Virus record (IMG/VR): IMGVR_UViG_3300022921_000075
Location: 1 to 28,351 of that record
DNA from: a virus
Direction: 5' to 3' (one strand)
Length of the DNA: 28,351 bases
Shown: in pieces, positions 7,244 through 20,366 of the stretch
Numbering within the stretch: the first letter of the stretch is position 1
Layout of the letters: each line of letters starts with the position of its first letter
Program-made: the position numbers and the translations under genes
The notes under the pieces: model-generated
Told to the model about the DNA's origin: nothing
The model's input: the letters and a program-made list of their open reading frames with translations, nothing else
Databases searched by the model: none

Positions 7244-7526
7244 ACTGCTCGGCAAAGCCGGCGGAGAAATCTTTTATATCTTCCATATCCCCGCCATCTC
7301 TAATTTCGCTGAGCATATTTTCTACTTCCATACGCATACGGAACATATCCCGACAATCCTGGGCGGTCTGCTTAATTGATTGCAGTTCCGCTTTTCGTGC
7401 GGAGCCAGAGATGTCTGGGTCGACAGGTTTTTGAATCTCCTGCACCATAGTGCGAATAGCAGTCTCCATAGCCTCTAGGAAGTCCTGCATCTCGTTTGCC
7501 GTGTTGAACTGTCGCTTCCTACCCAT
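7233..7526 (-). CDS. Unknown small helical protein upstream of TerL, 97 aa
   Basis: The product is predicted to be mostly helical (NTANEMQDFLEAMETAIRTM and RDMFRMRMEVENMLSEIRD) and starts with a basic MGRKRQF. It immediately precedes TerL in transcription order, the usual place of a small terminase subunit, and its size and helical character are compatible with that. No helix-turn-helix is evident, so a small-terminase role is only an inference from position. Its start overlaps the end of the GroES-like gene by 8 bp, showing operon coupling. Confidence 0.6.
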   Translation of the reverse strand: MGRKRQFNTANEMQDFLEAMETAIRTMVQEIQKPVDPDISGSARKAELQSIKQTAQDCRDMFRMRMEVENMLSEIRDGGDMEDIKDFSAGFAEQFSK

Positions 7527-8103
7527 TTTTCTTATATAAAATGTCGTTTGGCTTCATACGAAAAACCTCATCTCCGTTTGGTAGCTTGATTCGGTAGTCT
7601 GAATTCTTTGAATATCCGACCAAATCACCCTTTTTGAGTTCGAGTTCATCAGTTCCGGTGCCCTCGCAGTATACTTCTGCCTCTTGGTTGTCTTCTTTTG
7701 TCTTGTATCCAAGAAAAAGTCCAGATTTTGAGGCCTGTTCCTCTTGTTTTTGGCTCACGGCGCGCAGGAAGACCCAGTCTCCAAGCATCTTAACCTCTCC
7801 GGAGGGGGAAATGGCCGCATAGGCCTGCCCCTGGTAGTTTTTTGGGTCATATGACACCTTCACCACGTCGCCATCCACCCTATACTTATCCTTTTCTTGG
7901 TTGATATGGTGGTGGAAAATAAGCAAATCGCCGATTTCGGCGTCGGTTCCAAATTTCTGAGGTGTAGCAACTATTTCTGCATACGAAATTCGGCCTTCAA
8001 AGTCGTCGAAGCGCATATCCTTGGCGAGCGTTAGCGAGCCAACTTTAAATTCTTCCTCGAATGGCTTCTCCAACTTTACAAAAAAGTCGTATAAAGGTCG
8101 CAT
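7519..8103 (-). CDS. Tandem two-domain GroES-like co-chaperonin, 194 aa
   Basis: The protein reads as two GroES folds in a row. Domain 1 starts RPLYDFFVKLEKPFEEE, has a mobile-loop-like VGSLTL (residues 21-26) and the roof-strand GDLLIF (58-63). Domain 2 starts at about 108 (GDWVFLRAVSQKQEEQ), has SGLFL (127-131) in the mobile-loop position, GDLVGYSKN (149-157), and ends in FRMKPNDILYKK, close to the standard GroES ending with DIL. Each loop keeps a hydrophobic triplet (LTL, LFL) where GroES has IVL, the GroEL-binding residues. Phage co-chaperonins such as T4 gp31 help fold the capsid protein with host GroEL, and a similar role fits the position in the virion operon. Double-domain forms are known from plastids (Cpn20). 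The family call is by motif and length. Confidence 0.72.
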   Translation of the reverse strand: MRPLYDFFVKLEKPFEEEFKVGSLTLAKDMRFDDFEGRISYAEIVATPQKFGTDAEIGDLLIFHHHINQEKDKYRVDGDVVKVSYDPKNYQGQAYAAISPSGEVKMLGDWVFLRAVSQKQEEQASKSGLFLGYKTKEDNQEAEVYCEGTGTDELELKKGDLVGYSKNSDYRIKLPNGDEVFRMKPNDILYKKNG

Positions 8104-9195: not shown

Positions 9196-9239
9196 TCAGT
9201 CGCCCACCCCCATCCCTTAAAAATGTCAAAAATATGCTG

Positions 9240-9247
9240 TAACTTTG
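9240..9247 (+). promoter_or_regulatory. Promoter -7 element (TAACTTTG) of a candidate small RNA
   Basis: TAACTTTG matches TAnnTTTG exactly, 45 bp after the stop of the winged-helix-like gene. No clear -33 TTG is present at the usual distance. Transcription would begin near 9252 and reach a terminator at 9378-9402. Confidence 0.5.
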
Positions 9248-9251
9248 CTAT

Positions 9252-9402
9252 ACTGCTAAACGTATGTGAGTCGGAACATCAGTAGTCACTCAAAAGGTCA
9301 GCGTCGACCACACGACGCAAACGACCAACCCGACAACAACCACACTTGAATTCGCCCTAACTACGCTCAACTCTATCGCACGCATTCTCGCGTGCTTTTT
9401 TA
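9252..9402 (+). ncRNA. Candidate structured small RNA, about 150 nt
   Basis: A promoter box and a textbook terminator frame about 150 nt with no usable open reading frame (its only early ATG is followed at once by TGA). Two further stems are visible: TGAGT 9267-9271 with ACTCA 9288-9292, and a perfect 6-bp hairpin GCGTCG-ACCACA-CGACGC at 9301-9318. An unpaired A/C-rich stretch (about 9319-9365, low in G) follows and could act as a target-binding region or ribosome decoy. The start point is estimated from the promoter box. The target is unknown. Confidence 0.6.
9378..9401 (+). terminator. Rho-independent terminator
   Basis: A perfect 6-bp stem (GCACGC, loop ATTCTC, GCGTGC) is followed at once by six T. 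It would end the candidate small RNA and also any read-through from the winged-helix-like gene. Confidence 0.85.
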
Positions 9403-9900
9403 TTGCCCATATATGTGTTCACTTTTGAAAAGTAACACAATCCCCCACATTTCCCCACCACCCTCCTAAAAACGCTAATTACCACCCCAAAAGTGGTAAA
9501 AATGGTGTGTTATACGTGGGTATGGGATTCTATACGGCCCCAACGTTCGCGCGCGTGACCCGAAACGGATTCCCAAACCCCACACCCCGATGCGTGTTCA
9601 AACATTCAAAATAGTTTTGGCTTTTTGGTTTGATGTTTAAACATCTATACCCCCTCCCCCCGATTTTGTCGGCATCAATACCCCCCACCTTTTGTCCCGT
9701 TTTTGTTCAGTTTCCCGAAGGTGCGGAACTCTCCCCTCCCCTGTTTTCCCCTTGTTTTCTTGGCCTTTGTCCCCCTGTTGTGGGCTTGTAATCTCATCAG
9801 TTTGCCCCCATTTGGGTGATGAAATACCCCTGATTTTGCCGTGTTTCTTGGTGTTCCCATTGCCGATTTGTGTGCATAACTCCGGGCTAAATATGCCTGT
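9403..9900. other. Gene-free pyrimidine-rich tract with hairpins and G-quadruplex potential
   Basis: No credible protein gene. The plus strand is very rich in C and T, with C runs at 9650-9654, 9656-9661, 9681-9686, 9733-9736, 9738-9741, 9748-9751 and 9771-9775, so the minus strand can form G-quadruplexes. Short hairpins are present: ACTTTTGAAAAGT (9421-9433), TTACCAC with a 7-nt loop and GTGGTAA (9479-9499), and CCGA/TCGG (9660-9672). A 14-bp palindrome lies at 9632-9645. The role could be an origin, a packaging site or a transcription barrier. None is demonstrated. Confidence 0.5.
9632..9645. promoter_or_regulatory. Palindromic operator candidate, copy 1
   Basis: A perfect 14-bp palindrome (GATGTTTAAACATC). 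With its flanks it is nearly repeated at 10223-10234: both copies are preceded by TTTGGTTT and followed by CTAT. Two such sites in a gene-free region suggest a dimeric DNA-binding protein, possibly the product of the nearby regulator gene at 8740. Confidence 0.5.
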
Positions 9901-9924
9901 TTAGACCTGTTGCCGGGCTGGGCT

Positions 9925-9939
9925 GGTGTCGTCCAGTAA
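9925..9939 (+). repeat. 15-bp direct repeat, copy 1
   Basis: GGTGTCGTCCAGTAA occurs here and, identically, at 10488-10502. Both copies lie in the gene-free region, 563 bp apart. Confidence 0.8.
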
Positions 9940-9960
9940 GACGGAAAAGGCCGTTACTGG
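9933..9960 (+). other. Long hairpin with overlapping alternative stem
   Basis: CCAGTA (9933-9938) pairs with TACTGG (9955-9960) and ACGG (9941-9944) with CCGT (9951-9954), leaving an AG bulge and an AAAAGG loop. The same CCAG can instead pair with CTGG at 9923-9926 around a TGTCGT loop. A separate hairpin TGCTC/GAGCA follows at 9971-9987. The 15-nt start of this element (9925-9939) recurs exactly at 10488-10502 without the downstream arm. Confidence 0.5.
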
Positions 9961-10018
9961 AACGGGGTTTTGCTCTCCAGTTGAGCAGTTAGCCTCCGAC
10001 AGGCCTCGACAAAACCTG

Positions 10019-10043
10019 ATTAAGTGTCCTGTTGACATTTAAT
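10019..10043. repeat. Paired inverted repeat, copy 1
   Basis: ATTAAGTGT, a 7-nt spacer (CCTGTTG), then ACATTTAAT: nine pairs with one G-T. The same arms with another 7-nt spacer recur at 10144-10168, 125 bp away. Conserved arms with a changed centre suggest a binding site for a dimeric protein or a conserved RNA hairpin. Confidence 0.6.
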
Positions 10044-10143
10044 TTTAATGCGGGTTTCCGGTCGTCGCCGACGCCTTCGGCGTTCTCTGTATCTCAATGG
10101 TGGCGGGGGGTGCAGCGAAAGTTTCCTGAAATGAGGGGTGTTG

Positions 10144-10168
10144 ATTAAGTGTCTGACAAACATTTAAT
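10144..10168. repeat. Paired inverted repeat, copy 2
   Basis: Arms ATTAAGTGT and ACATTTAAT are identical to copy 1 at 10019-10043; the spacer here is CTGACAA. Both copies are preceded by TG. Confidence 0.6.
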
Positions 10169-10222
10169 GTGGCGCAAAGTGAGGCGGGGCGCGGGTTTGC
10201 TTTAAATGTCAATTTGGTTTCT

Positions 10223-10234
10223 ATGTTATAACAT
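10223..10234. promoter_or_regulatory. Palindromic operator candidate, copy 2
   Basis: Perfect 12-bp palindrome ATGTTATAACAT with the same flanks (TTTGGTTT before, CTAT after) as the palindrome at 9632-9645. The two differ in the central bases. Confidence 0.5.
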
Positions 10235-10281
10235 CTATTGAGTGTATCATTTGGGACGGCCTGATTGGCCTGATTTAGGGT

Positions 10282-10296
10282 GTGTACTTGGTACAC
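10282..10296. promoter_or_regulatory. Inverted repeat GTGTAC-TTG-GTACAC
   Basis: A perfect 6-bp inverted repeat with a 3-bp centre, of the size of a small repressor operator. No promoter box is seen next to it. Function is unknown. Confidence 0.35.
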
Positions 10297-10349
10297 TAAC
10301 TAAAAATGTTGAAAAAGTGACTGATTTTTTAATAACTCTCTACAACCCT

Positions 10350-10368
10350 GTGGTGGCGCGGGTTTCAG
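10350..10368 (+). repeat. 19-bp direct repeat, copy 1
   Basis: GTGGTGGCGCGGGTTTCAG occurs here and exactly at 10430-10448, an 80-bp period. Shorter relatives (GCGGGTTT) lie at about 10050 and 10190. The spacing and GC-rich nature differ from coding DNA nearby. Confidence 0.8.
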
Positions 10369-10429
10369 GAGATTAGGCCTATCGCTATCATTCCCCGGAA
10401 GTTATGATGACTGACCCTCCGCAAACGCA

Positions 10430-10448
10430 GTGGTGGCGCGGGTTTCAG
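10430..10448 (+). repeat. 19-bp direct repeat, copy 2
   Basis: Exact copy of 10350-10368, upstream of the promoter of the candidate large RNA. Confidence 0.8.
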
Positions 10449-10487
10449 AGCCTCCCTCGCGCGGGTAACAATTAGAGGGCTGATGAG

Positions 10488-10502
10488 GGTGTCGTCCAGT
10501 AA
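10488..10502 (+). repeat. 15-bp direct repeat, copy 2
   Basis: Exact copy of the element at 9925-9939. It lies 22 bp before the -33 element of the promoter of the candidate large RNA, directly before a run of eight T and eight G. Confidence 0.8.
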
Positions 10503-10523
10503 CGCACTTTTTTTTGGGGGGGG

Positions 10524-10554
10524 CTTGTTTATCCAAAAACTCTTTTTACATTTG
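10524..10554 (+). promoter_or_regulatory. Bacteroidota-type promoter of the candidate large RNA
   Basis: TTG at 10525-10527, a 19-bp spacer, then TACATTTG at 10547-10554, an exact -7 match. Initiation would fall near 10558-10561, where the first base-paired arm (TCGAACA) of the structured region begins. Eight T and eight G in a row lie just upstream (10508-10523). Confidence 0.65.
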
Positions 10555-10799
10555 AACCATCGAACAGGCCGAGAGGGGCGACAGCCCCCACATAAGAAGG
10601 CCGATGTTCGAACCCCCTCTCCGAGGAGTACGAGTTTCAAACTGCGGGGGGTGATGTTAAGAAGTTAGCATCGAGAGTGGTTGACCCGTAAAGTTGACAA
10701 GACACTCCATAGCGTAACACGCCGAGGTACACACCCCTCAACGCTTATAACTTCCACTCCTCCTTCGAATCAGTTATTTGGTGCGACGATGGCGGTGCC

Positions 10800-10823
10800 G
10801 GTACGGATACATTAGAATTCACG
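10800..10823 (+). repeat. 24-bp direct repeat displayed in a hairpin loop, copy 1
   Basis: An exact 24-bp sequence beginning GGTACGGATACA and ending GAATTCACG is found here and at 10895-10918. This copy lies in the loop of a helix formed by 10787-10796 and 10824-10832 (nine pairs with one bulged G). The loop contains the self-complementary GAATTC. Confidence 0.8.
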
Positions 10824-10894
10824 ACCGCATCGACATCAACGCCGACGATAGTAGGTTCCCTGACGGCCTCGGCCGAACGGACAGAGGCGTTTTA

Positions 10895-10918
10895 GGTACG
10901 GATACATTAGAATTCACG
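10895..10918 (+). repeat. 24-bp direct repeat displayed in a hairpin loop, copy 2
   Basis: Exact copy of 10800-10823. It too is enclosed by a helix, GCGTT 10887-10891 with AACGC 10924-10928, although the flanking sequence differs. The same loop is thus held by two different stems. Confidence 0.8.
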
Positions 10919-11097
10919 GCCACAACGCACAAATGTCATACGGGATACTGAACGGAAAAACGAAATACGCCCCTCGAGGCCTCGATTGGATGAGTGCTTA
11001 ATGAACCCCTAACGGATACCTTCATTGCGCCGGGCGGCCAAGGACGCCCATAGCAATCACCTCCGTCAATGGATAGTAGATTTTGACCCCTACCACA

Positions 11098-11145
11098 GGG
11101 TGAGCACAGGATTACGCCTGTCGCCGGTTCGTGACCGACTCACCC
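11098..11145 (+). ncRNA. Three-way-junction RNA element 1
   Basis: A closing 7-bp stem (GGGTGAG/CTCACCC) encloses two hairpins: ACAGG-ATTACG-CCTGT (11106-11121) and CGGT-TCGTG-ACCG (11125-11137), joined by CGC. The second hairpin and the linker are shared with the element at 16251-16293 (CGCCGGTTCGYGACCG), while the closing stem and first hairpin differ in sequence but keep pairing. It precedes the first small gene of the operon, in the place that ribozymes take elsewhere. Confidence 0.7.
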
Positions 11146-11163
11146 ACTATTTAATACTATTCT

Positions 11164-11200
11164 GAACCGCGTTCCTGTAACGCATAAAACCCCCGGAGTT
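11164..11200 (+). promoter_or_regulatory. Conserved leader hairpin before the 67-aa gene
   Basis: GAACC, a hairpin GCGTT-CCTGT-AACGC (11169-11183), then ATAAAACCCCC and the start codon at 11201. The same layout with a different stem occurs at 13842-13874 before the 127-aa gene. Conserved flanks around a changed stem suggest selection on structure, possibly for translation or mRNA stability. Here a GGAG also precedes the ATG. Confidence 0.6.
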
Positions 11201-11404
11201 ATGAAATTCATCCCCGCTACTGACGACCAATTGTTCAAGTTGTCTTGCACAACCCGCCGCTCTTCCTCACGCACCACTTCAGGTGCAAGATTTATTGCTA
11301 ACGACCGAGGCCTTGTGGCCAAGGCTAAAAAAGCAATTGTTGATTCTCTTGAAAAAGATGACAACATCTTTGTCAACTCTCGTTTAGTTTATGTTTGTAA
11401 GTAA
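11201..11404 (+). CDS. Unknown basic protein, 67 aa, first gene of the small-gene operon
   Basis: The protein has a Ser/Thr/Arg-rich centre (SCTTRRSSSRTTSGARF) followed by an amphipathic helix (GLVAKAKKAIVDSLEKDD) and a short hydrophobic end. It is basic, unlike most neighbours. It follows the leader hairpin at 11164-11200 and has a GGAG three bases before its ATG, a rarity in this operon. No family recognised. Being first after the structured RNA region, it is probably expressed early and strongly. Confidence 0.6.
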   Translation: MKFIPATDDQLFKLSCTTRRSSSRTTSGARFIANDRGLVAKAKKAIVDSLEKDDNIFVNSRLVYVCK

Positions 11405-11422
11405 TCCTAAAAATCAATAGAT

Positions 11423-11767
11423 ATGAATTTTGTAGTGAAATTGAGTAGCAAGAAAACGAATAAAACTTGCAAGTTCATCTTCCGCCCCGCCGATGGTGTT
11501 AACCCCGAACAATTTATCAAGAGCGGTTCTTTCCGCTCTGATTATGATTGGAGAGTGTACGATAATCGCAAGGCCTTCCTGAATGATTTGTGGAAATTGG
11601 CTATCGAAGCCGGTAACCCTATCGAGTATGTCAAGGTGAATGAAAGATTGAATTGGGAGCGCACTTCCCTTTGGGACAAGACCCGCTTTCCAAACGCGGA
11701 AGAGTTTAACAATCACATCTTGGATGGCCGGTTGTTAGTAAAGGAATTGGTTCAGGTCAATTACTAA
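11423..11767 (+). CDS. Unknown protein, 114 aa
   Basis: A mixed alpha/beta protein starting MNFVVKLSSKKTNKTCKFIF, with aromatic and charged segments (DYDWRVYDNRKAFLNDLWKL and NWERTSLWDKTRF). No motif is recognised. It lies 18 bp after the 67-aa gene and is the last gene before the first hammerhead ribozyme, which begins three bases after its stop codon. After ribozyme cleavage its mRNA would end in the two ribozyme hairpins. Confidence 0.65.
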   Translation: MNFVVKLSSKKTNKTCKFIFRPADGVNPEQFIKSGSFRSDYDWRVYDNRKAFLNDLWKLAIEAGNPIEYVKVNERLNWERTSLWDKTRFPNAEEFNNHILDGRLLVKELVQVNY

Positions 11768-11770
11768 TCA

Positions 11771-11824
11771 GGTTCGCTGATGAGGATTTAATATCCGAAA
11801 CATCCCTTCGGGGATGTCCGAATC
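11771..11824 (+). ncRNA. Type I hammerhead ribozyme 1
   Basis: The 54 nt have every hammerhead part. Stem I is GGTTCG/CGAATC (one G-U). The core CTGATGA spans 11777-11783. Stem II is GGAT-TTAAT-ATCC, followed by GAA (11797-11799). Stem III is 7 bp closed by a C(UUCG)G tetraloop. The cleavage triplet is GUC at 11816-11818, so the cut falls between 11818 and 11819. Both ends lie in stem I (type I). It starts three bases after the stop of the 114-aa gene and ends 14 nt before the next start, so it would separate the two mRNAs. Confidence 0.92.
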
Positions 11825-11838
11825 AAATACTAAATGTT

Positions 11839-11943
11839 ATGCGCTCAAATGCTGACTTCACCAATGTGATTGCAGTTCCTGTAATCCTCGTTGCTATTGC
11901 AACACTCTCTATTGTAATCTTAAACTTCTCTCAAATCCTTTGA
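11839..11943 (+). CDS. Single-pass membrane micropeptide, 34 aa
   Basis: The product MRSNADFTNVIAVPVILVAI continues with ATLSIVILNFSQIL. About 24 consecutive hydrophobic residues form one transmembrane helix after a short polar N-terminus. It is the first gene after ribozyme 1, with a leader of only about 20 nt once cleaved. The coding helix (VAIATLSIVIL) resembles the lipoprotein signal at 12857 (LIATLSLTIAS), which may reflect duplication. Function unknown; small phage membrane proteins often act in lysis timing or exclusion. Confidence 0.55.
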   Translation: MRSNADFTNVIAVPVILVAIATLSIVILNFSQIL

Positions 11944-11946
11944 ATT

Positions 11947-12117
11947 ATGGCTTACGCATTCATCATCACCATCTTTTCTTTTGCAGTTTTCTTTGCAGTA
12001 AACTTTCAGAACGCTGAACAAACTGAAAATAAATTCAAGAAGGTATTGCTTTATACCCTTTCTGCCGCTAACTTTGTCGGCGCAATTGCAACGACCATTT
12101 GTTTATTCACCTACTAA
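11947..12117 (+). CDS. Two-helix small membrane protein, 56 aa (holin-like topology)
   Basis: Two hydrophobic segments, AYAFIITIFSFAVFFAV (residues 2-18) and about LLYTLSAANFVGAIATTICL (34-53), flank a charged loop (QNAEQTENKFKK). This is a hairpin topology seen in small holins, but also in other phage membrane proteins. It begins four bases after the stop of the 34-aa gene. It is far from the lytic transglycosylase gene, so a holin role is only a possibility. Confidence 0.6.
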   Translation: MAYAFIITIFSFAVFFAVNFQNAEQTENKFKKVLLYTLSAANFVGAIATTICLFTY

Positions 12118-12127
12118 ATCGAACGAA

Positions 12128-12430
12128 ATGAAAAAGTTCCCTACCGCACTACAACGCCGCATCGACGAAGTAAATGAGTTTATTTCTCGAGCGAATCGGC
12201 TTGACCTTCTTCCCGGAGGATTTTGTGAGTCAACTCACTACTGCTATGTTGACCTCGAGCCAATCGTAGTAAAGAATCAGTTCGTGTACTTCACGAATAA
12301 GCGCGATAGCCCGTACAACTTTATCACCCCCAAGCGTGAACGCTTGAATGTGAACAATGAAGAAGACCTTGATGGTATCAAGTACTACCTGAAAGTTATC
12401 CGCCGCACTTTGAAATCTAATCTCGACTGA
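12128..12430 (+). CDS. Unknown protein, 100 aa
   Basis: The ATG at 12128 (MKKFPTALQRRIDEVNEFIS) follows an A-rich GAACGAA leader and is preferred over an in-frame start at 12074 that would lie within the previous gene. An N-terminal amphipathic helix is followed by beta-rich sequence (YCYVDLEPIVVKNQFVYFTN) and a basic C-terminal helix (GIKYYLKVIRRTLKSNLD). No family is recognised. Confidence 0.65.
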   Translation: MKKFPTALQRRIDEVNEFISRANRLDLLPGGFCESTHYCYVDLEPIVVKNQFVYFTNKRDSPYNFITPKRERLNVNNEEDLDGIKYYLKVIRRTLKSNLD

Positions 12431-12431
12431 T

Positions 12432-12650
12432 ATGGAATTCGAAACATTCATAGTGCTACTGCCCACCGCATTCTTCAGCAAGGAGGCGGCCATCGCAATC
12501 GAGAATACAACAATTGTGAGTATTTACGACGCTAATTTTGCTGAAGCCGGTGCAGAAGTATACCGGCTAACTGAATTCGCTGACGCCTGTAATCATCAAG
12601 AGATTGATTTCAGTAAGTATTTTGTTTCTTTTGTAAACGCAACGATTTAA
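12432..12650 (+). CDS. Unknown acidic protein, 72 aa
   Basis: The start codon lies one base after the previous stop, so translation is coupled. The protein is acidic and mixed alpha/beta (FETFIVLLPTAFFSKEAAIA, ENTTIVSIYDANFAEAGAEV, FSKYFVSFVNATI). No motif is recognised. It shares the FSKY segment with the next gene, hinting at a distant duplication, although the rest does not align by eye. Confidence 0.6.
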   Translation: MEFETFIVLLPTAFFSKEAAIAIENTTIVSIYDANFAEAGAEVYRLTEFADACNHQEIDFSKYFVSFVNATI

Positions 12651-12653
12651 ATT

Positions 12654-12860
12654 ATGGAATACACTCTTTCCCCTACCGATTATGTTATCCTTGACGGAGA
12701 CAATCAACCGCTCCGGTTTGCATACACCGAAGAGATTGTAGTATACGGCTCTTTCGAAGAGGCCGCACAAGATTTCTCCAAGTATTGCAATTCAATCGAA
12801 CGAGTAACCTCCCTACCGGAAGAACTTCAAAATGAAATCATCAAAGGAAGCCTATTATGA
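12654..12860 (+). CDS. Unknown acidic protein, 68 aa
   Basis: An acidic protein (MEYTLSPTDYVILDGDNQPL, then EEIVVYGSFEEAAQDFSKYC and a C-terminal helix). It lies three bases after the previous gene and overlaps the following lipoprotein gene by four bases (ATGA). No family is recognised. Confidence 0.6.
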   Translation: MEYTLSPTDYVILDGDNQPLRFAYTEEIVVYGSFEEAAQDFSKYCNSIERVTSLPEELQNEIIKGSLL

Positions 12861-12940
12861 AAACCAATCTATCTATCACCGCAGTAGTCATTTTGATTGC
12901 AACACTCTCTCTAACCATCGCTTCTTGCACAACCCTTTAA
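12857..12940 (+). CDS. Lipoprotein micropeptide, 27 aa
   Basis: The product is MKTNLSITAVVILIATLSLT followed by IASCTTL: a basic start, a hydrophobic helix and the lipobox I-A-S-C. Cleavage before Cys24 would leave a lipidated peptide of only four residues (CTTL). The ATG overlaps the upstream stop (ATGA), so it is translationally coupled and not random. It may act as a signal-like peptide, a membrane-inserted inhibitor, or saturate lipoprotein processing. All of these are speculative. Confidence 0.5.
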   Translation: MKTNLSITAVVILIATLSLTIASCTTL

Positions 12941-12954
12941 TACCCAACACGACT

Positions 12955-13341
12955 ATGGAAAATCAACACAATTTCAAAGTAGGTGACCGCGTTATTCCAC
13001 GCCTCAATACAACAAACCCCCCGCTCCGCTACCTTCCCGGGATGAAGGGTACCATCACGAAGGATGATAGCGATGGTAATCTCTACGGACGGGTGACTAT
13101 TACATTCGATAAAAATGTAGGTGGCCACGGGATTGAAGAAAAGAATTGGTATATAATGGTTGAAGAATTGGAACTACTTGTTGAAACACCTGTTCGCAAT
13201 TATGTTTTTGTTGGCCGCTTACAGGTAAACGGACAACAGGTAGAAATGACTGCCGCCACGGCCGATATCTTATTCGACATCGCAGATAAGTTAGGTGGCC
13301 ACGAAGAAACACGCATCGAAGTATTTCCACGAACCCTTTAA
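12955..13341 (+). CDS. SH3-like/KOW-like small protein, 128 aa
   Basis: The first about 70 residues (FKVGDRVIPRLN, LPGMKGTITKDD, YGRVTITFDKNVGG, NWYIMVEELELL) follow the pattern of an SH3-like or KOW-type barrel: a GDRV strand, a GxxGTI turn, then V-I-F-D strands. Such domains bind proteins or nucleic acids in host-takeover factors. The C-terminal part has a second beta/alpha segment (YVFVGRLQVNGQQVEMTAAT, DILFDIADKLGG). The ATG at 12955 is chosen over one at 12832, which lies inside the previous genes. Confidence 0.65.
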   Translation: MENQHNFKVGDRVIPRLNTTNPPLRYLPGMKGTITKDDSDGNLYGRVTITFDKNVGGHGIEEKNWYIMVEELELLVETPVRNYVFVGRLQVNGQQVEMTAATADILFDIADKLGGHEETRIEVFPRTL

Positions 13342-13350
13342 TCGAAAAGT

Positions 13351-13512
13351 ATGGAACTGAAGAACATCACGACCACAGACATCGAGCAAGTTCAAGACGC
13401 CCTCTATGAGGGCATTGAATATATCGCCAACATTTCAGACGAGCGATACGACAATCCCGTTGTTAAGCAACTACAATCCGCAATTGACACACTAAACTAT
13501 GTTTCCCTATGA
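13351..13512 (+). CDS. Unknown acidic helical protein, 53 aa
   Basis: A short acidic protein (MELKNITTTDIEQVQDALYE, then GIEYIANISDERYDNPVVKQ) predicted to be helical throughout. It starts nine bases after the previous stop behind an A-rich leader and overlaps the next gene by four bases (ATGA). No family is recognised. Confidence 0.55.
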   Translation: MELKNITTTDIEQVQDALYEGIEYIANISDERYDNPVVKQLQSAIDTLNYVSL

Positions 13513-13775
13513 GAACTTTCATCGCATCTACCCACGCCGAACTATATGTCATCGGCCAACCAATCATCCTCGACCTTATCGACGCCGTAGTCGACAACGA
13601 TTTGGCCGGGATTGATAAATGCAAGACCGACGCACAGGCCTTGATAATTCAGAACGCCGCCAAGCAAGGTAGTGTTCAGGTAGGCCTTGGGGCCTTTAAA
13701 AACTCCTTCTACAAAATCCTTGAGGAGGGAGGGTATTTCCCAAGCCTGACCCGGTTCGCCGGTGTTCAGTCATAA
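13509..13775 (+). CDS. Unknown protein, 88 aa
   Basis: The protein starts MRTFIASTHAELYVIGQPII, continues with a helical acidic segment and a Gly-rich centre (KQGSVQVGLGAFKNSFYKIL). No motif is recognised. The coding sequence near its end includes a perfect CCGG-TTCG-CCGG hairpin (13751-13762). Its stop codon directly abuts hammerhead ribozyme 2. Confidence 0.6.
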   Translation: MRTFIASTHAELYVIGQPIILDLIDAVVDNDLAGIDKCKTDAQALIIQNAAKQGSVQVGLGAFKNSFYKILEEGGYFPSLTRFAGVQS

Positions 13776-13829
13776 GATTTGCTGACGAGCCTTCAGTAGG
13801 CGAAACACCCCTACGGGGGTGTCCAAATC
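13776..13829 (+). ncRNA. Type I hammerhead ribozyme 2
   Basis: A 54-nt hammerhead. Stem I is GATTTG/CAAATC (perfect). The core CTGACGA spans 13782-13788. Stem II is GCCT-TCAGT-AGGC, followed by GAA (13802-13804). Stem III is 7 bp with a C(UACG)G tetraloop, and the GUC triplet is at 13821-13823. The cut falls between 13823 and 13824. It has the same architecture and length as ribozyme 1 with all stems changed, that is, compensatory changes. It starts at the base after the upstream stop codon. Confidence 0.93.
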
Positions 13830-13841
13830 AAAGTAAAACAC

Positions 13842-13874
13842 GAACCGCGCCCCGGCGCATAAACCCCCATAGAG
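13842..13874 (+). promoter_or_regulatory. Conserved leader hairpin before the 127-aa gene
   Basis: GAACC, hairpin GCGC-CCCG-GCGC (13847-13858), then ATAAACCCCC and the start codon at 13875. It matches the leader at 11164-11200 in flanks, hairpin position and the C run. It would lie 18 nt from the 5' end produced by ribozyme 2. Confidence 0.6.
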
Positions 13875-14258
13875 ATGGAGAATTTCTTCGCAACGAACGC
13901 AGAGTTGAGCGGCAAAATCAACAAGTTGAAGGCTATTCCTTTTCAACACGAGGTTGGTATCAAAGACGACAAGGGTCTCTACCTGTACAAGACCTTTGCC
14001 GACGCCTACAAATACAAGCCATACGCTGACGAGGCCTACGAGCCTTGGATGAGCGGAGTATGGATGGGTAAGCCCGGCACCGGAGCATACGCAATGATTG
14101 CACTTCATTGGGAGGATTTAGTGAAGGCCAAGCAATGGTTCTTGCACTACGAATTGGAGGCAATGAAAGGTAATGTTTGGTTTGTTGAGTACAACGCTCA
14201 AAAGGAATTCGGGCAGATGCCTACGGAGCGTAGTAAGGCACCGAATCCAAAGGTGTGA
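13875..14258 (+). CDS. Unknown aromatic-rich protein, 127 aa
   Basis: The protein is rich in Tyr and Trp (LYLYKTFADAYKYKPYADEA, then YEPWMSGVWMGKPGTGAYAM) and has a helical end (EDLVKAKQWFLHYELEAMKG). No family is recognised. It is the only gene between ribozymes 2 and 3, so cleavage at both would yield a monocistronic mRNA of about 490 nt with the conserved leader hairpin at its 5' end. A separately processed message suggests a need for independent dosage. Confidence 0.65.
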   Translation: MENFFATNAELSGKINKLKAIPFQHEVGIKDDKGLYLYKTFADAYKYKPYADEAYEPWMSGVWMGKPGTGAYAMIALHWEDLVKAKQWFLHYELEAMKGNVWFVEYNAQKEFGQMPTERSKAPNPKV

Positions 14259-14267
14259 TAGCGAACA

Positions 14268-14321
14268 GGCTTACTGATGAGGATTGATTATCCGAAACGC
14301 CCCGGTTGGGGCGTATAAGTC
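14268..14321 (+). ncRNA. Type I hammerhead ribozyme 3
   Basis: A 54-nt hammerhead. Stem I is GGCTTA/TAAGTC (one G-U). The core CTGATGA spans 14274-14280. Stem II is GGAT-TGATT-ATCC, followed by GAA (14294-14296). Stem III is 7 bp with a GGTT loop. The cleavage triplet is GUA at 14313-14315, still within the NUH rule, so the cut falls between 14315 and 14316. It starts nine bases after the upstream stop. It is slightly less canonical than the other two because of GUA and the non-UNCG loop. Confidence 0.9.
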
Positions 14322-14346
14322 AAATAGAAACCAAAATTCTTTGAGT

Positions 14347-14589
14347 ATGATAACTACCACAGGAAACATAGTATACTACAAGTTTGAATGCGACGATGAG
14401 AATCGTCCCACAGGTATGAAGGCAGATATGTTCTTCTCCTTGTTGGAACTCGACAAGGCCTTCGCTCTGAAGGAGGAATTGGATAGTAAACAAATCCAAT
14501 ACACATTCTTACTTGAGAAATTCAATAAACATAAAGCCGAAATAGTCGACCGAGATTATTTTGTTGACAACAATTCTTTTAACCAATAA
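14347..14589 (+). CDS. Unknown protein, 80 aa
   Basis: The ATG at 14347 (MITTTGNIVYYKFECDDENR) is chosen because the longer in-frame start at 14284 lies inside ribozyme 3. The protein has a beta N-terminus and a helical, charged remainder (FFSLLELDKAFALKEELDSK). No family is recognised. It is the first gene after ribozyme 3, with a leader of 31 nt after cleavage. Confidence 0.65.
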   Translation: MITTTGNIVYYKFECDDENRPTGMKADMFFSLLELDKAFALKEELDSKQIQYTFLLEKFNKHKAEIVDRDYFVDNNSFNQ

Positions 14590-14603
14590 TTATAAACAAG
14601 ATT

Positions 14604-14849
14604 ATGAGCACACCACACGCAAACAAAGTAGAGTTGGTCAAGTTAGATGTGGCCTACACCGAAGACGGCTATGAATTGTACGCAGTTCTTCACGCCGGTT
14701 ATGAAGGAATCCCCGAGGCCTCCTCTTGGGGACGGATGAGTGATTGGGCAGATACCGGTTACTTCTTCAATCAGGACTCATTTGAAGAATGGGTCGAGCA
14801 GATGACCGAAGAGGGATACATTAAAGTAGTAGATGATTATACCAAGTAA
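14604..14849 (+). CDS. Unknown acidic protein, 81 aa
   Basis: An acidic protein with beta N-terminus (VELVKLDVAYTEDGYELYAV) and aromatic acidic C-terminus (NQDSFEEWVEQMTEEGYIKV). A leader ATAAACAAGATT precedes the ATG, without a Shine-Dalgarno site. No family is recognised. Confidence 0.6.
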   Translation: MSTPHANKVELVKLDVAYTEDGYELYAVLHAGYEGIPEASSWGRMSDWADTGYFFNQDSFEEWVEQMTEEGYIKVVDDYTK

Positions 14850-14859
14850 AATTAAAGAG

Positions 14860-15138
14860 ATGAACAACTACAAAGAACTGACCGACCTACTGGAAGAAAA
14901 AGGAATGTGGAACTATGGTTGGGCAAAGCCCGGTCAAATCTTCATCAACCAAGGTCGCCGATTGGCGGCTATTGTGGTCGGTGACACGACTGACTACAAT
15001 GTAGCCTACAAGATGCCCAACGGACGCATCTACGCAAAGAATGTTAAAGCCGAAGAGGCAGATAAAATCCTAACCATCGCAATGTACCTAAAGTTGGACG
15101 GCGATACAGGTGAAGTTGAAGGTGGCTTCGGCTTCTAA
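14860..15138 (+). CDS. Unknown protein, 92 aa
   Basis: The ATG at 14860 (MNNYKELTDLLEEKGMWNYG) follows AAAGAG and is preferred over one at 14833 inside the previous gene. The sequence is a helix followed by beta strands (GRRLAAIVVGDTTDYNVAYK) and a Gly-rich end. No family is recognised. Confidence 0.62.
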   Translation: MNNYKELTDLLEEKGMWNYGWAKPGQIFINQGRRLAAIVVGDTTDYNVAYKMPNGRIYAKNVKAEEADKILTIAMYLKLDGDTGEVEGGFGF

Positions 15139-15162
15139 TTATAACCAGTAAAACTTGAAACT

Positions 15163-15390
15163 ATGGATATTTCAAACCATTCAGTATTTGCAATTGTGTG
15201 CCGCCACTTCATTGGCGATGTGAATGAGGAAGTGCTCCTCGATATGGCCAACACACTTGCGCCATTCGCAGAGAGCCTTACGAAACTGCACGACACAGAG
15301 GAGCCACACATTGTGGCCGGTACCATCATTCACGACTACTGCGGCCTTTCAAAAGGTGACCCGCACTTCTTACCTCGTCTGACTAAATAA
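15163..15390 (+). CDS. Unknown helical protein, 75 aa
   Basis: A helical protein (MDISNHSVFAIVCRHFIGDV, then LLDMANTLAPFAESLTKLHD) with four His and two Cys spread along it (C13, H15, H42, H48, H57, C60), not in a recognised metal-binding spacing. No family is recognised. It has an A-rich leader typical of the operon. Confidence 0.6.
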   Translation: MDISNHSVFAIVCRHFIGDVNEEVLLDMANTLAPFAESLTKLHDTEEPHIVAGTIIHDYCGLSKGDPHFLPRLTK

Positions 15391-15397
15391 AAGAATT

Positions 15398-15664
15398 ATG
15401 GAAAAAATAATTAGACCAAACTACGCAAGGGATTGGGTGTACGCAACGCATTGGGTGATTGAAACCGGGCGCGATTGCGACGGGGTTCACACCCGTGGGC
15501 GTGTATGGCCGTTCTTGGGCTTCGACGCCGCTAAAGAATACGCACAGAAATGTGCCGAATGGAGCGACGGCCTTGGGTACAACATCACAGACAAAGTCGT
15601 CACACTAAAGGAGTATTGCTACGACCATCAACTCTACTTTGAAGATTATATACTTGTTGAATAA
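15398..15664 (+). CDS. Unknown aromatic-rich protein, 88 aa
   Basis: Starts MEKIIRPNYARDWVYATHWV and carries acidic and aromatic segments (LGFDAAKEYAQKCAEWSDGL, DHQLYFEDYILVE). The pattern, a short beta strand pair then a helix, is similar to other small proteins here, such as the 81-aa product at 14604, but no clear homology is seen. Function unknown. Confidence 0.6.
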   Translation: MEKIIRPNYARDWVYATHWVIETGRDCDGVHTRGRVWPFLGFDAAKEYAQKCAEWSDGLGYNITDKVVTLKEYCYDHQLYFEDYILVE

Positions 15665-15681
15665 CTAAAAAAGAAACTGAT

Positions 15682-16236
15682 ATGGCTATTATCGCAACCG
15701 GAAACGAATACAAGGTGCAGTTCGGCACGATTCAAGAACTCGATGCCGTCCTCAAGATGGTAATCAAAGGAATCCCTGACGGATTCTTTGACTTCCAGTC
15801 GCAAGGGAATCAATTCTCTGCGCTCGACCTGAAGGTCGACCTGTCCTGTGACGCTGAACCTCCCGTGTTCTTGGATATGTTCTACAACGGACTAATCACG
15901 AACTACTTCGGGCAATACGACATATCGTTGGCCACGATGCAGTCAGATTACGACAAGGCCCGGGACAAGGTGATTGAAAAAAACCCCAACGCCTGTTGGG
16001 AGGATGTCTTGCTACAGGTATTGTCTGACGGCAACCTCGTCTTCGAAGACCACTACCAAGGGATGACGATTGAACTCAACCTGAATAGGGTAGGAAGTAA
16101 CTTCCTGAAGGCATTCAACGATGCCCCGGATTACTTTATGGAACTTGTTGTACTTCACGCCAACGGAGGGTCGGACGGAACCACCTACGACGCTTGGCTT
16201 CAAATGGGAACATACGGAGAGGTTATCTACGGATAG
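15682..16236 (+). CDS. Unknown acidic protein, 184 aa
   Basis: The largest product of the small-gene cluster. It is acidic, with alternating hydrophobic strands (MVIKGIPDGFFDFQSQGNQF, PVFLDMFYNGLITNYFGQYD) and helices. No motif is recognised. It is followed 14 bases later by three-way-junction element 2, and so ends an RNA-element-bounded block of six genes that begins after ribozyme 3. Confidence 0.65.
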   Translation: MAIIATGNEYKVQFGTIQELDAVLKMVIKGIPDGFFDFQSQGNQFSALDLKVDLSCDAEPPVFLDMFYNGLITNYFGQYDISLATMQSDYDKARDKVIEKNPNACWEDVLLQVLSDGNLVFEDHYQGMTIELNLNRVGSNFLKAFNDAPDYFMELVVLHANGGSDGTTYDAWLQMGTYGEVIYG

Positions 16237-16250
16237 TCCGCTATCATCAT

Positions 16251-16293
16251 CTGCCCTCACCTTCGGGGTGCGCCGGTTCGCGACCGGGGGCAG
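16251..16293 (+). ncRNA. Three-way-junction RNA element 2
   Basis: Closing stem CTGCCC/GGGCAG (16251-16256/16288-16293) encloses hairpin CACC-TTCGG-GGTG (16258-16270) and hairpin CCGGT-TCGCG-ACCGG (16273-16287). It shares CGCCGGTTCGYGACCG with the element at 11098-11145, while the other two stems differ but pair. Like the ribozymes it follows a stop codon by a few bases, and like them it is followed by a TCAAATA-type segment (16301-16307). No hammerhead core is present, and no T tract, so it is not a terminator. Confidence 0.7.
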
Positions 16294-16327
16294 AACTAAA
16301 TCAAATAAACCTCAAATCTTAACTATT

Positions 16328-16687
16328 ATGAAATACCAAATCGAAAACGCCCTGTTGAAGATATCAAGAGATATCCGCATAACATCCACGCTTATGAGCG
16401 ATGGCTCTAAAAACTGGGAACTGCACTTCGAATACCCGAAAGAGTATTGTGTTGGCGAATTTGTTCAGCATACTGAACCAATCGAACCTGACGACCCGTC
16501 TATGACTGACGAAGACGACACCGACTACGATGTTTGGTGCGCCGTCGACGATATCGACATCAACTTTTGGAGGGAGCACGGAGGCGAAGTTGGGGAGATT
16601 ATTAACTTCAGCATCTATCCGGTTCTCGATGGAGAAACTTGGACGAATGTTGACCCCATCCGTGGAGTAGTTGAATTTTTAAAATAA
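16328..16687 (+). CDS. Unknown acidic protein, 119 aa
   Basis: The ATG at 16328 (MKYQIENALLKISRDIRITS) follows the three-way-junction element; a longer in-frame start would run into the previous gene and the RNA element. The protein is strongly acidic in the middle (EPIEPDDPSMTDEDDTDYDV), of the sort seen in DNA-mimic or host-enzyme inhibitors, but no family is recognised and mimicry is only a thought. Confidence 0.65.
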   Translation: MKYQIENALLKISRDIRITSTLMSDGSKNWELHFEYPKEYCVGEFVQHTEPIEPDDPSMTDEDDTDYDVWCAVDDIDINFWREHGGEVGEIINFSIYPVLDGETWTNVDPIRGVVEFLK

Positions 16688-16692
16688 AAGAA

Positions 16693-16989
16693 ATGAAAAA
16701 ATCAAATGAATATGTAGCCGCTACATCTGCGCTTGTATGGTCAGTAGAAGACCTTGACTGGAATGCGGAGTGCCTTAACGATTCCGGAATCATTAATGAG
16801 GAAGGTAAAAAGGCCGTCCTTGAGATGAGCAACGAAGACAAGTTACTTTGGTTGAATCAAATCCTTGAGGATTGTCACGATGAGTTTTGTCAGGTCATCA
16901 ATGAGCGCATCGGAGATGCTATCTACGACTACTATCGCAGTACGCCTATGGGTAAGGAAGAAGTTGGACACATTAAATACAATCGCTAA
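16693..16989 (+). CDS. Unknown acidic helical protein, 98 aa
   Basis: A mostly helical acidic protein (VWSVEDLDWNAECLNDSGII, NEDKLLWLNQILEDCHDEFC). An AAAGAA leader precedes the ATG. Its stop codon abuts the start of the next gene. No family is recognised. Confidence 0.62.
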   Translation: MKKSNEYVAATSALVWSVEDLDWNAECLNDSGIINEEGKKAVLEMSNEDKLLWLNQILEDCHDEFCQVINERIGDAIYDYYRSTPMGKEEVGHIKYNR

Positions 16990-17130
16990 ATGGAAGACAC
17001 GACAATCACTTTCTGCTACGAGTTAGGAGGCTCTCTTGAGAGAGTCCCCTGCGCCAATATGACCGAGGCGCGAGGCCTTATGACCGAGGCAAACGCCAAA
17101 GGTATCGAATGTTACATCCACATAAAGTAA
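16990..17130 (+). CDS. Unknown protein, 46 aa
   Basis: The ATG follows the previous stop codon directly (TAAATG), a coupled arrangement. The sequence is MEDTTITFCYELGGSLERVP, then CANMTEARGLMTEANAKGIE and a short strand: a compact beta-beta-alpha-beta pattern with three Cys. No family is recognised. Confidence 0.5.
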   Translation: MEDTTITFCYELGGSLERVPCANMTEARGLMTEANAKGIECYIHIK

Positions 17131-17132
17131 GT

Positions 17133-17351
17133 ATGATGATAGCGGAAAAAACACAATTGTTCACCTTTGCTGACAATTTCGGTGGGGCTTATACGCCGAA
17201 GAAACTTCGCTACGAAGGTGAGGGCAGTAGCCTCCCTTCAAAAGACCAAATAAATGCTTGGGTACGGGCGGATGGTGCAGATGGATATATCATCCGCCGC
17301 ATTGACAAGTATGATGATTGGGATGATGAATATGTAAATCCTTTTATTTAA
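17133..17351 (+). CDS. Unknown acidic protein, 72 aa
   Basis: Starts MMIAEKTQLFTFADNFGGAY two bases after the previous stop (a second ATG follows at 17136). It has an acidic C-terminus (RRIDKYDDWDDEYVNPFI). The form, two strands then a helix containing DQINAWVRADG, is common among small phage proteins. Function unknown. Confidence 0.6.
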   Translation: MMIAEKTQLFTFADNFGGAYTPKKLRYEGEGSSLPSKDQINAWVRADGADGYIIRRIDKYDDWDDEYVNPFI

Positions 17352-17358
17352 TATTACT

Positions 17359-17577
17359 ATGAATCAAAAGCAAATAAATGAATTGGCGGATACGAGAGCG
17401 GAAATCGTCACCAATGCAACCAAAATGATTATGTCCGAGTATGTTAACACTATGATGAAGTTATATGGAGTTACAGACCAACGAACGGGCAAATACTGCG
17501 AACACCAGGTCTTCCACCAATTATGGAGGGCGTTAGATGAAGCCGAATGGGCGGTATCTGAAAGAGCAATGGTTTAA
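17359..17577 (+). CDS. Unknown helical protein, 72 aa
   Basis: A helical protein (NELADTRAEIVTNATKMIMS, VFHQLWRALDEAEWAVSERA) with no recognised motif. It lies seven bases after the previous gene. From about here the DNA becomes visibly more AT-rich than in 11.2-17.3 kb. Confidence 0.6.
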   Translation: MNQKQINELADTRAEIVTNATKMIMSEYVNTMMKLYGVTDQRTGKYCEHQVFHQLWRALDEAEWAVSERAMV

Positions 17578-17596
17578 CCTTTAACACCAAAAAGAA
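17576..17596 (+). promoter_or_regulatory. Shared leader motif, copy 1
   Basis: AACCTTTAACACCAA, two variable bases, then AGAAATGAAAA leads into the 75-aa gene. The same leader precedes the gene at 28238 after the tRNA. The conserved part covers the untranslated leader and first codons, so it probably aids translation in the absence of a Shine-Dalgarno site, or marks a regulated message. Confidence 0.55.
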
Positions 17597-17824
17597 ATGA
17601 AAAATTCAGTTTCAATTTATGAAGGCTCATTAAATGTTGTAATTAAACAAGTTGAGTCGGGACATTTAATTAGTGTAATGTTTGACAACGAACTCGTTGA
17701 GCAGTATACAAGTTCTAAAGTTACAAACCCAAAAATTTATGCGCGGATACTCATTGAATCATTTCAGGCGGTAATGAGAGATTCACAAAATGTTCCAAAT
17801 TTAAACGAGATTGGCTATGCTTGA
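17597..17824 (+). CDS. Unknown protein, 75 aa
   Basis: Starts MKNSVSIYEGSLNVVIKQVE, beta-rich at first and helical later (KIYARILIESFQAVMRDSQN). It is preceded by the leader motif shared with the gene at 28238. It overlaps the next gene by eight bases. No family is recognised. Confidence 0.6.
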   Translation: MKNSVSIYEGSLNVVIKQVESGHLISVMFDNELVEQYTSSKVTNPKIYARILIESFQAVMRDSQNVPNLNEIGYA

Positions 17825-18119
17825 TGTTGTTAAGATTATCAATCTATTCACCGCAGTTGAGACGGCATACCTGATGGGTGAGCCATTGATACGATTCATA
17901 GGTGAGAGAGATGAGAGATACGCTATGTCGTTTATATTTCTAAACGACAAAACATCTCAATACCTTTGGGATTGTAACGACAAAGTTAGGTGTGCTGATT
18001 ATGTCAGTTCCTTATTGAAAGGACATATAGCATCTAAATCATTAGACCTTGATTCAGTTGAAATGTTTGACGATAAATCATTGCGAAACACGATAAAAAG
18101 ATTTGCAGATGACAATTGA
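17817..18119 (+). CDS. Unknown acidic protein, 100 aa
   Basis: The ATG at 17817 (MLDVVKIINLFTAVETAYLM) overlaps the previous gene by eight bases; an in-frame TTG at 17811 is less likely. It is helical and acidic, with two Cys in the middle (WDCNDKVRCADYV). It overlaps the next gene by 11 bases. No family is recognised. Confidence 0.6.
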   Translation: MLDVVKIINLFTAVETAYLMGEPLIRFIGERDERYAMSFIFLNDKTSQYLWDCNDKVRCADYVSSLLKGHIASKSLDLDSVEMFDDKSLRNTIKRFADDN

Positions 18120-19280: not shown

Positions 19281-19756
19281 TGAACAATTTAGCATCATTG
19301 ATAACTATCGGTATGTTGACGATAGTTAGCCCTATTGAAAGCGATGTCTCCACAACTATTGATGTGGGGCTTGTTAAGCCTTTCAAAAGAAAGCCATCTC
19401 GAAAAGACACATTAGGCACTCTTATGAATGCGCAGATTCAAGTAGAAAGCACCGGAAATCCGAATGCTCACAACAAGAAAGAAGATGCGGTAGGTGTGCT
19501 TCAAATCCGACCTATTATGGTCAGGGAAATAAATCGTCAACTTAAATTAGCGGGGGATGATAGTGTATTTAACCTTGACGATAGGTGGTCTGAATCCAAA
19601 TCAAAAGAAATGTGGTGGACTTTTGTGAATTTATCTCATAAAAATCATTCACCCGAGCGCATAGCAAGATGTTGGAATGGTGGGGGCAATGGTCACAAAA
19701 AACAATCAACAAAAAAATACTGGAATAAAGTAAAATCAATAATGTATGCAAAATAA
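19280..19756 (+). CDS. Lytic transglycosylase (SLT-type lysozyme fold), 158 aa
   Basis: A peptidoglycan-cleaving enzyme. The catalytic Glu is probably Glu56 in AQIQVESTGNPNA, followed by AVGVLQIRP (about 70-78) and CWNGGGNG (about 130-137), the three motifs of SLT-domain transglycosylases (ES-GN, GxxQ, and N-GG). A hydrophobic N-terminal stretch (SLITIGMLTIVS, residues 6-17) could serve as a signal or membrane anchor, so export may not need a holin. It is the probable endolysin. Its place in the early arm, beside ThyX and away from the virion operon, is unusual. The ThyX gene overlaps its end by 11 bases. Confidence 0.85.
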   Translation: MNNLASLITIGMLTIVSPIESDVSTTIDVGLVKPFKRKPSRKDTLGTLMNAQIQVESTGNPNAHNKKEDAVGVLQIRPIMVREINRQLKLAGDDSVFNLDDRWSESKSKEMWWTFVNLSHKNHSPERIARCWNGGGNGHKKQSTKKYWNKVKSIMYAK

Positions 19757-20366
19757 AGTAGAACTTTTAGGCTATTACGGGAGTGACAAAGTAATTGCCC
19801 AGTCCGCGTGGACATCAACATCAAGGGATTTGACAGACGACAAGGTCAGTAGAATCCCCGCGTTGATTAATATGCTATGGAGCAATGGACACGAAACTCC
19901 ATTTGAGAAGGCATCAGTACACTTTCTTGTAACCACTGATATTGCTACGCACATCCACCTGCTTAAGCACAGGATGTCATCACTTAACGCTGAATCAGCG
20001 CGATACAAGGAACTTAAAGATGATAAGTTCTATATCCCAATCGACTGGGACTTGGATAGCCAAGAACAATTAATTCAGTTTTCCGAACTATCCAACAAGT
20101 TGTATCACGAGCACATTGAAAAACTTACTCCATCACTCGGTAGAAAGAGAGCCAAAGAATCAGCAAGATTCTTTAAGACATACAATTCTCAAATCACCGC
20201 AGATGTTATGTTCAATATGCGCTCATTCGCAAATTTCTTAAATTTACGCGCATCGGAACACGCTCAAGTAGAAGTTAGGGAATTGGCTATTGATATGCTA
20301 AAACTCGTTCAAAAAATTGAGGGAAATCCATTTAAAGAAACCCTAATTAATATTTACAATGAGTAG
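19746..20366 (+). CDS. thyX: Flavin-dependent thymidylate synthase ThyX, 206 aa
   Basis: ThyX makes dTMP from dUMP with methylenetetrahydrofolate, NAD(P)H and FAD, feeding phage DNA synthesis. The signature appears at residues 74-87 as KHRMSSLNAESARY, close to the RHRxxSxNExSxRY consensus, with Lys for the first Arg and Ala for the first Glu position. GHETPFEKASVHF (48-60) is the other typical ThyX segment. The length is typical. The start overlaps the transglycosylase gene by 11 bases, and the next gene overlaps its end by eight. Confidence 0.93.
   Translation: MQNKVELLGYYGSDKVIAQSAWTSTSRDLTDDKVSRIPALINMLWSNGHETPFEKASVHFLVTTDIATHIHLLKHRMSSLNAESARYKELKDDKFYIPIDWDLDSQEQLIQFSELSNKLYHEHIEKLTPSLGRKRAKESARFFKTYNSQITADVMFNMRSFANFLNLRASEHAQVEVRELAIDMLKLVQKIEGNPFKETLINIYNE

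Follow-up and report, generated by a model that had tools for sequence, protein, structure and literature searches.

What does a self-cleaving RNA motif do between two small genes of an uncultured phage, and does its GUA cleavage triplet make it behave differently from two neighbouring copies? These questions are raised by positions 14268-14321 of the 28,351-nt stretch of viral DNA analysed here (the window). Judged by its sequence, this segment is a real hammerhead ribozyme motif, the third of three (HHR1, HHR2 and HHR3) that separate small genes of the phage.

Architecture and setting of the third hammerhead

Because Rfam at gathering threshold reported only a tRNA and no hammerhead in the window, we used a purpose-built descriptor and a covariance model, R1. 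The descriptor, comprising CUGANGA, stem II, GAAA, stem III, UH and stem I in that order, was scanned over both strands of the whole window and found exactly three hammerheads, all on the plus strand and all 54 nt long, with stems I, II and III of 6, 4 and 6 bp. Across 100 dinucleotide-preserving shuffles, 0.02 loose matches are expected per window by chance, against three motifs observed, and none had the real stem lengths. The RAGATH-1 hammerhead family (RF03152) scored 22.6 bits at HHR3 and 23.1 bits at HHR2, well below its gathering threshold of 56.3; HHR1 gave no match to RF03152 even at E = 10, and no other Rfam hammerhead family matched the window even at E 10. The window copies score 72-74 bits with the covariance model, but all three are in its training set and the scores are thus not independent evidence.

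HHR3 opens with the 5' strand of stem I, GGCTTA (14268-14273), whose partner is TAAGTC at 14316-14321. Between them follow the catalytic core CTGATGA (14274-14280), stem II (GGAT/ATCC, 14281-14293) closed by a TGATT pentaloop of the UNANU class, the second core element GAAA (14294-14297), stem III (CGCCCC/GGGGCG, 14298-14313) closed by GGTT, and the nucleotides TA that complete the GUA triplet at 14313-14315, all on the plus strand. Cleavage is predicted after A14315, between 14315 and 14316, which would make TAAGTC the 5'-OH end of the downstream message. The CUGANGA and GAAA cores are joined by three stems, the A15.1-U16.1 pair is present together with an NUH triplet (H not G), and both motif ends lie in stem I with loops closing stems II and III, as in a type I hammerhead. 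The coordinates, 54-nt layout, GUA triplet and stem III loop given in the preliminary description were all reproduced exactly by the scan. Its span is exact for the classical motif and omits the conserved A at 14267 and AAA at 14322-14324. Relatives conserve the A directly 5' of stem I (97%), the G-C pair closing stem I (~91% G), the A's directly 3' of it (89%, 84% and 53%) and the UNANU pentaloop; since all these features are present in the three window copies, we place the complete HHR3 element at 14267-14324. HHR1 (11770-11827; classical motif 11771-11824) and HHR2 (13775-13832; classical motif 13776-13829) share this architecture on the plus strand with GUC triplets, and their cuts are predicted between 11818 and 11819 and between 13823 and 13824, respectively.

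The three copies have a common setting. In a rightward operon of small genes (11201-16236), intergenic gaps are at most 24 nt except for three of 71, 99 and 88 nt, each of which contains one hammerhead. A 114-aa gene without an assigned family (11423-11767, plus strand) stops 3 nt ahead of HHR1, and the stop codon of an 88-aa gene (13509-13775, plus strand) directly adjoins HHR2. Between HHR2 and HHR3 lies a 127-aa gene (13875-14258, plus strand), likewise without a family; HHR3 starts 9 nt past its stop and is followed, after 25 nt, by the ATG of an 80-aa gene (14347-14589, plus strand). No Pfam or PHROGs family was matched by the genes beside HHR3. A program-listed reading frame at 14284-14589, which would start with TTG within HHR3, was dropped in favour of the ATG at 14347. 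The record that holds these three co-oriented, gene-flanking copies also encodes proteins matching the PHROGs terminase and portal families, as expected for clustered phage hammerheads. The terminase shares 40-44% identity with its counterparts in Flavobacterium elemo phages and in an uncultured podovirus, and no DNA similarity to named phages was found in the window from 11000 to 18000.

Elsewhere in the window, a 2-kb region with few convincing genes (9196-11200) separates a leftward structural module from the rightward early module. It holds several degenerate direct repeats (for example 10791-10832 and 10886-10927), is ~95-97% identical in close relatives and is possibly an origin or promoter region. 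A Cpn10-like domain protein is encoded next to the terminase region (7519-8103, minus strand) and a ThyX-type thymidylate synthase at 19746-20366 (plus strand).

Relatives, covariation and folding

Hammerheads of this form are numerous in uncultured viruses. An IMG/VR scan with a same-spacing pattern yielded at least 119 loci, at least 100 of them with such hammerheads, and the IMG/VR pattern scans combined gave at least 594 hammerheads in at least 346 loci. Among the matches listed, similar loci were joined into 146 groups with 276 representatives; full records in this set carry from 1 to 14 copies, mostly clustered; copy pairs within representatives lie on the same strand in 344 cases and on opposite strands in 0; 4% of representative hammerheads fall within a same-strand reading frame, compared with 59% of random sites; and an ATG follows within 40 nt in 75%, compared with 10% of random sites. 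The subfamily is abundant, yet it is missed at Rfam thresholds. In cellular genomes, the strict motif scan returned zero matches and a looser pattern returned 22 loci, 10 of the 22 with such hammerheads. A 5.8-kb contig binned as Aliivibrio (L374) has nine hammerheads by descriptor and eight by R1 within 4 kb, with stem I GATTAA or GGTTAA, and is probably of phage origin despite its bacterial bin.

When 51 copies are aligned without gaps (A1), 98.8% of cells are paired and 16 of 19 pairs show two-sided changes. The covariation score of 0.888 drops to 0.171 when the alignment is shuffled and is lost when partners are slid; RNAalifold recovers the identical fold from the alignment unaided. All six pairs of stem I carry double changes, with 100% of cells paired. 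Compensatory change is also visible close to home, as stem III of HHR1 differs between the window and its close relative L121 by a compensated double change. Together with the intergenic placement and the hundreds of relatives, this covariation lends strong support to the hammerhead identity originally proposed. A further signal joins loop II to the edge of stem I: the base that ends loop II changes together with the base immediately 3' of stem I (T-A in 221 copies, A-T in 12 from 10 groups, other combinations in 22; mutual-information z of 47), and the A before stem I and the first loop-II base form a near-invariant pair of positions. This pattern suggests a tertiary contact between the two.

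For 14260-14335, the minimum-energy fold coincides exactly with the HHR3 structure (-21.0 kcal/mol, z of -1.95 relative to shuffles), and stem III alone is a strong hairpin with a pair probability of 0.98-0.99. With flanks of 50-100 nt, in a folding model that ignores tertiary contacts, stem I is only 1-4% probable in all three copies, and in HHR1 a competing hairpin covers the core; these results count against a working ribozyme. Stem III's strength and the disfavoured stem I would also fit a decayed or non-catalytic motif that acts only as a 3'-end hairpin stabilizing the upstream message. We consider that reading extremely improbable, because every core base of HHR3 is intact, stem I covaries perfectly among relatives, and a plain hairpin would not require the absence of GUG and GUU that we describe below.

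We propose instead that 14267-14324 is very probably a working type I hammerhead at the 3'/5' untranslated junction of a polycistronic small-gene transcript in a tailed phage, and that its probable task is to divide a long transcript into separate messages. Architecture, covariation, placement, permitted triplets and conservation were read from the sequence, and from these we infer actual cleavage, when it takes place, and what it does to the stability or translation of the pieces. During transcription of the operon, the RNA would fold and bring stem I, together with the A and AAA beside it, into contact with the UNANU loop II, and self-cleavage would follow the GUA triplet. The upstream message would thereby acquire a structured 3' end, made of stems II and III and a 2',3'-cyclic phosphate, and the downstream gene a short 5'-OH leader starting UAAGUC-AAA. 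With all three sites active, the operon would fall into four pieces: the upstream genes, a block of ~2,005 nt, a 492-nt single-gene RNA carrying the 127-aa gene (13824-14315) and the remainder.

The GUA triplet and the rate of cleavage

HHR3 alone differs in its triplet from HHR1 and HHR2, and the preliminary description had taken GUA as a slower triplet that would set different processing at the three sites. We therefore weighed the possibility that the ribozymes are tuned to different rates, with a slow GUA setting the ratio of processed to unprocessed messages. In 424 distinct phage hammerheads among the matches listed, from loci not chosen for GUA, the triplets are GUC (382), GUA (29), CUC (4), AUC (3), UUC (2), AUA (2) and UUA (2), which places GUC at 90%, GUA at 7% and both GUG and GUU at 0%. 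The third base is C in 391 of these listed copies, A in 33, and U or G in none, in agreement with the NUH rule. This distribution is what selection for cleavage predicts. The rarity of GUA relative to GUC in this set may mean that it is slightly less fit, and HHR3 keeps GUA in L121, the sole close relative; both observations lend something to the idea of tuning. One relative at ~90% identity is, however, too close for proof of selection on GUA, and this retention points only weakly in that direction.

Comparison between relatives argues the other way. Among orthologous, non-identical ribozymes, pairs of GUA with GUC number 17 (not independent of one another) and exceed the nine pairs of GUA with GUA. 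In one case, between L168 and L253, the swap of GUA for GUC at the same site is the only difference between the ribozymes. GUA has no preferred rank in mixed arrays, and a review names GUC and GUA as the two natural motifs of greatest intrinsic rates (PMC3138052). Within the window itself, stem I of HHR3 is the most favoured of the three when 10-nt flanks are included, with a probability of 0.54 compared with 0.25 and 0.15 for the other two copies in a secondary-structure model. The proposed link from a slower GUA to different processing at the three sites thus finds no support, and we regard rate tuning as quite improbable. On these comparisons, GUA is best described as a fully permitted second-choice triplet, an ordinary variant rather than a sign of speed control. 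The variant is minor by itself, and its value is that it confirms that selection keeps the sites cleavable.

Gene turnover, shared stems and known systems

In L121 (~90% identity), HHR1, HHR2 and HHR3 are all kept in place, and HHR3 retains its GGTT loop along with the triplet, with one loop-II change from TGATT to TGAGT. Alignment of the two phages stops precisely at the 3' end of HHR3 (14324), where the window has the extra gene 14347-14589 and L121 continues directly with the next gene; it also breaks just after HHR1, where the window has an extra 34-aa gene. The window regions with extra small genes, which run from the 3' edges of the two ribozymes, are 11842-11944 and 14325-14600. The ribozymes thus appear to sit at joints of gene gain and loss. 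The 127-aa gene ahead of HHR3 was found only in L121. In HHR1 of L121 (1919-1972, minus strand), stem III and its loop match those of HHR2 exactly (CACCCCTACGGGGGTG), a hint that sequence may be copied from one ribozyme to another within a phage.

Two relatives with 84% terminase identity, L403 and L408, carry two hammerheads each in the same early-gene region (5479-5539 and 5810-5868, minus strand), both with GUC. These have a common stem I (GGTTAA/TTAACC) and different stems II and III, and in both an additional U, an unusual core insertion, separates CUGAUGA from stem II. Other relatives, at 62-75% terminase identity, showed no hammerhead in their available sequence, many being fragments, and the array therefore appears to be a dispensable, lineage-specific trait, which counts against our main reading.

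The alignment breaks against L121 could mean that the ribozymes chiefly mark DNA exchange joints of gene cassettes, with cleavage keeping inserted genes independent of their neighbours. Homologous hammerhead pairs elsewhere share both flanking genes in 209 cases, only the upstream gene in 165 and only the downstream gene in 177, although these are raw counts and phage genomes are mosaic everywhere. We judge it unlikely that marking joints is the chief role, and the reading is in any case compatible with RNA cleavage rather than a replacement for it.

Copies within one phage also tend to share stem I. The mean stem I difference within a phage is 0.97, compared with 2.58 under GC-matched shuffling (0 of 1000 shuffles), and the sharing persists between copies that differ in leader, stem II and stem III alike. 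It is stronger between neighbours than between non-neighbours (p ~0.0015), with no such effect in stems II and III. In loci with at least two copies, such as L158, L221 and L374, stem I is near-constant and stems II and III vary. Shared stems I would give the fragments compatible ends, which either the ribozymes or an RNA ligase could then join again; the products would be circular or recombined messages, and the phage would have a cassette system at the RNA level. The sharing was rejected as proof of RNA ligation or circularization, as orthologues likewise keep stem I best, with a change of 0.072 compared with 0.181 and 0.162 for stems II and III. Matched on stem II/III divergence, paralogues resemble orthologues at the higher levels. 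Duplication followed by slower change in stem I would explain most of the sharing and is the simpler account. Pairings that would form circles are not preferred over those that would excise (54% and 56% among the matches listed), and no RNA ligase was found among 20 window proteins scanned against Pfam. With the 3' strands of the other two copies, the 5' strand of HHR2 forms 6/6 pairs, whereas that of HHR3 forms only 4/6, and the window consequently fits an RNA-level cassette system only in part. Spliced or circular products were sought in tandem cases by Perreault et al. and none were detected (PMC3088659). We consider such rejoining highly improbable.

The arrangement to which HHR3 belongs is of a kind known in phages since 2011, when Perreault et al. 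described clustered prophage hammerheads and proposed that they split long phage transcripts (PMC3088659). For the clustered hammerheads of A. tumefaciens, A. caulinodans and C. scindens, cleavage was shown in vitro, and for the A. tumefaciens set in E. coli as well (PMC3088659). Like those clusters, the window has several close hammerheads flanking single genes or short blocks in phage DNA; unlike them, its copies are uniformly type I, with an open 6-bp stem I and a UNANU loop II, and belong to an uncultured phage with another host and other genes. RAGATH-1, the only hammerhead family that responded to the window, shares the type I layout, the CUGANGA/GAAA core and a 4-nt loop III, but has a 5-bp stem I and an upstream hairpin. 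The type I hammerheads of animal retrozymes and Penelope-like elements (PMC7761336) have the same open stem I and catalytic core; they lie in tandem DNA repeats, and those of retrozymes give rise to small circular RNAs (PMC7761336), whereas each window copy separates different protein-coding genes of a phage.

We found no paper on this exact hammerhead form in the openly readable main-text literature, and the form is very common in uncultured phages, sitting right ahead of start codons. Homologues occur in two cultured phages with named hosts, which makes processing directly testable: Flavobacterium phage elemoC_14-1A (MT497067.1, 16948-17013, minus strand; 53.4 bits with R1) and Methylophilales phage MEP301 (MW452941.1, 698-757, plus strand; 54.2 bits). 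Both resemble the window copies in having the R1 form and in being placed between small genes, and differ in being single copies with GUC; neither is annotated in its record. In elemoC_14-1A, a spurious 108-nt antisense reading frame has been called over the hammerhead. At another locus (L045), a similar leader of ~35 nt (aaaagtcaggtgcagactataacaggc...) separates each of six hammerheads from the gene that follows and may be a second conserved element.
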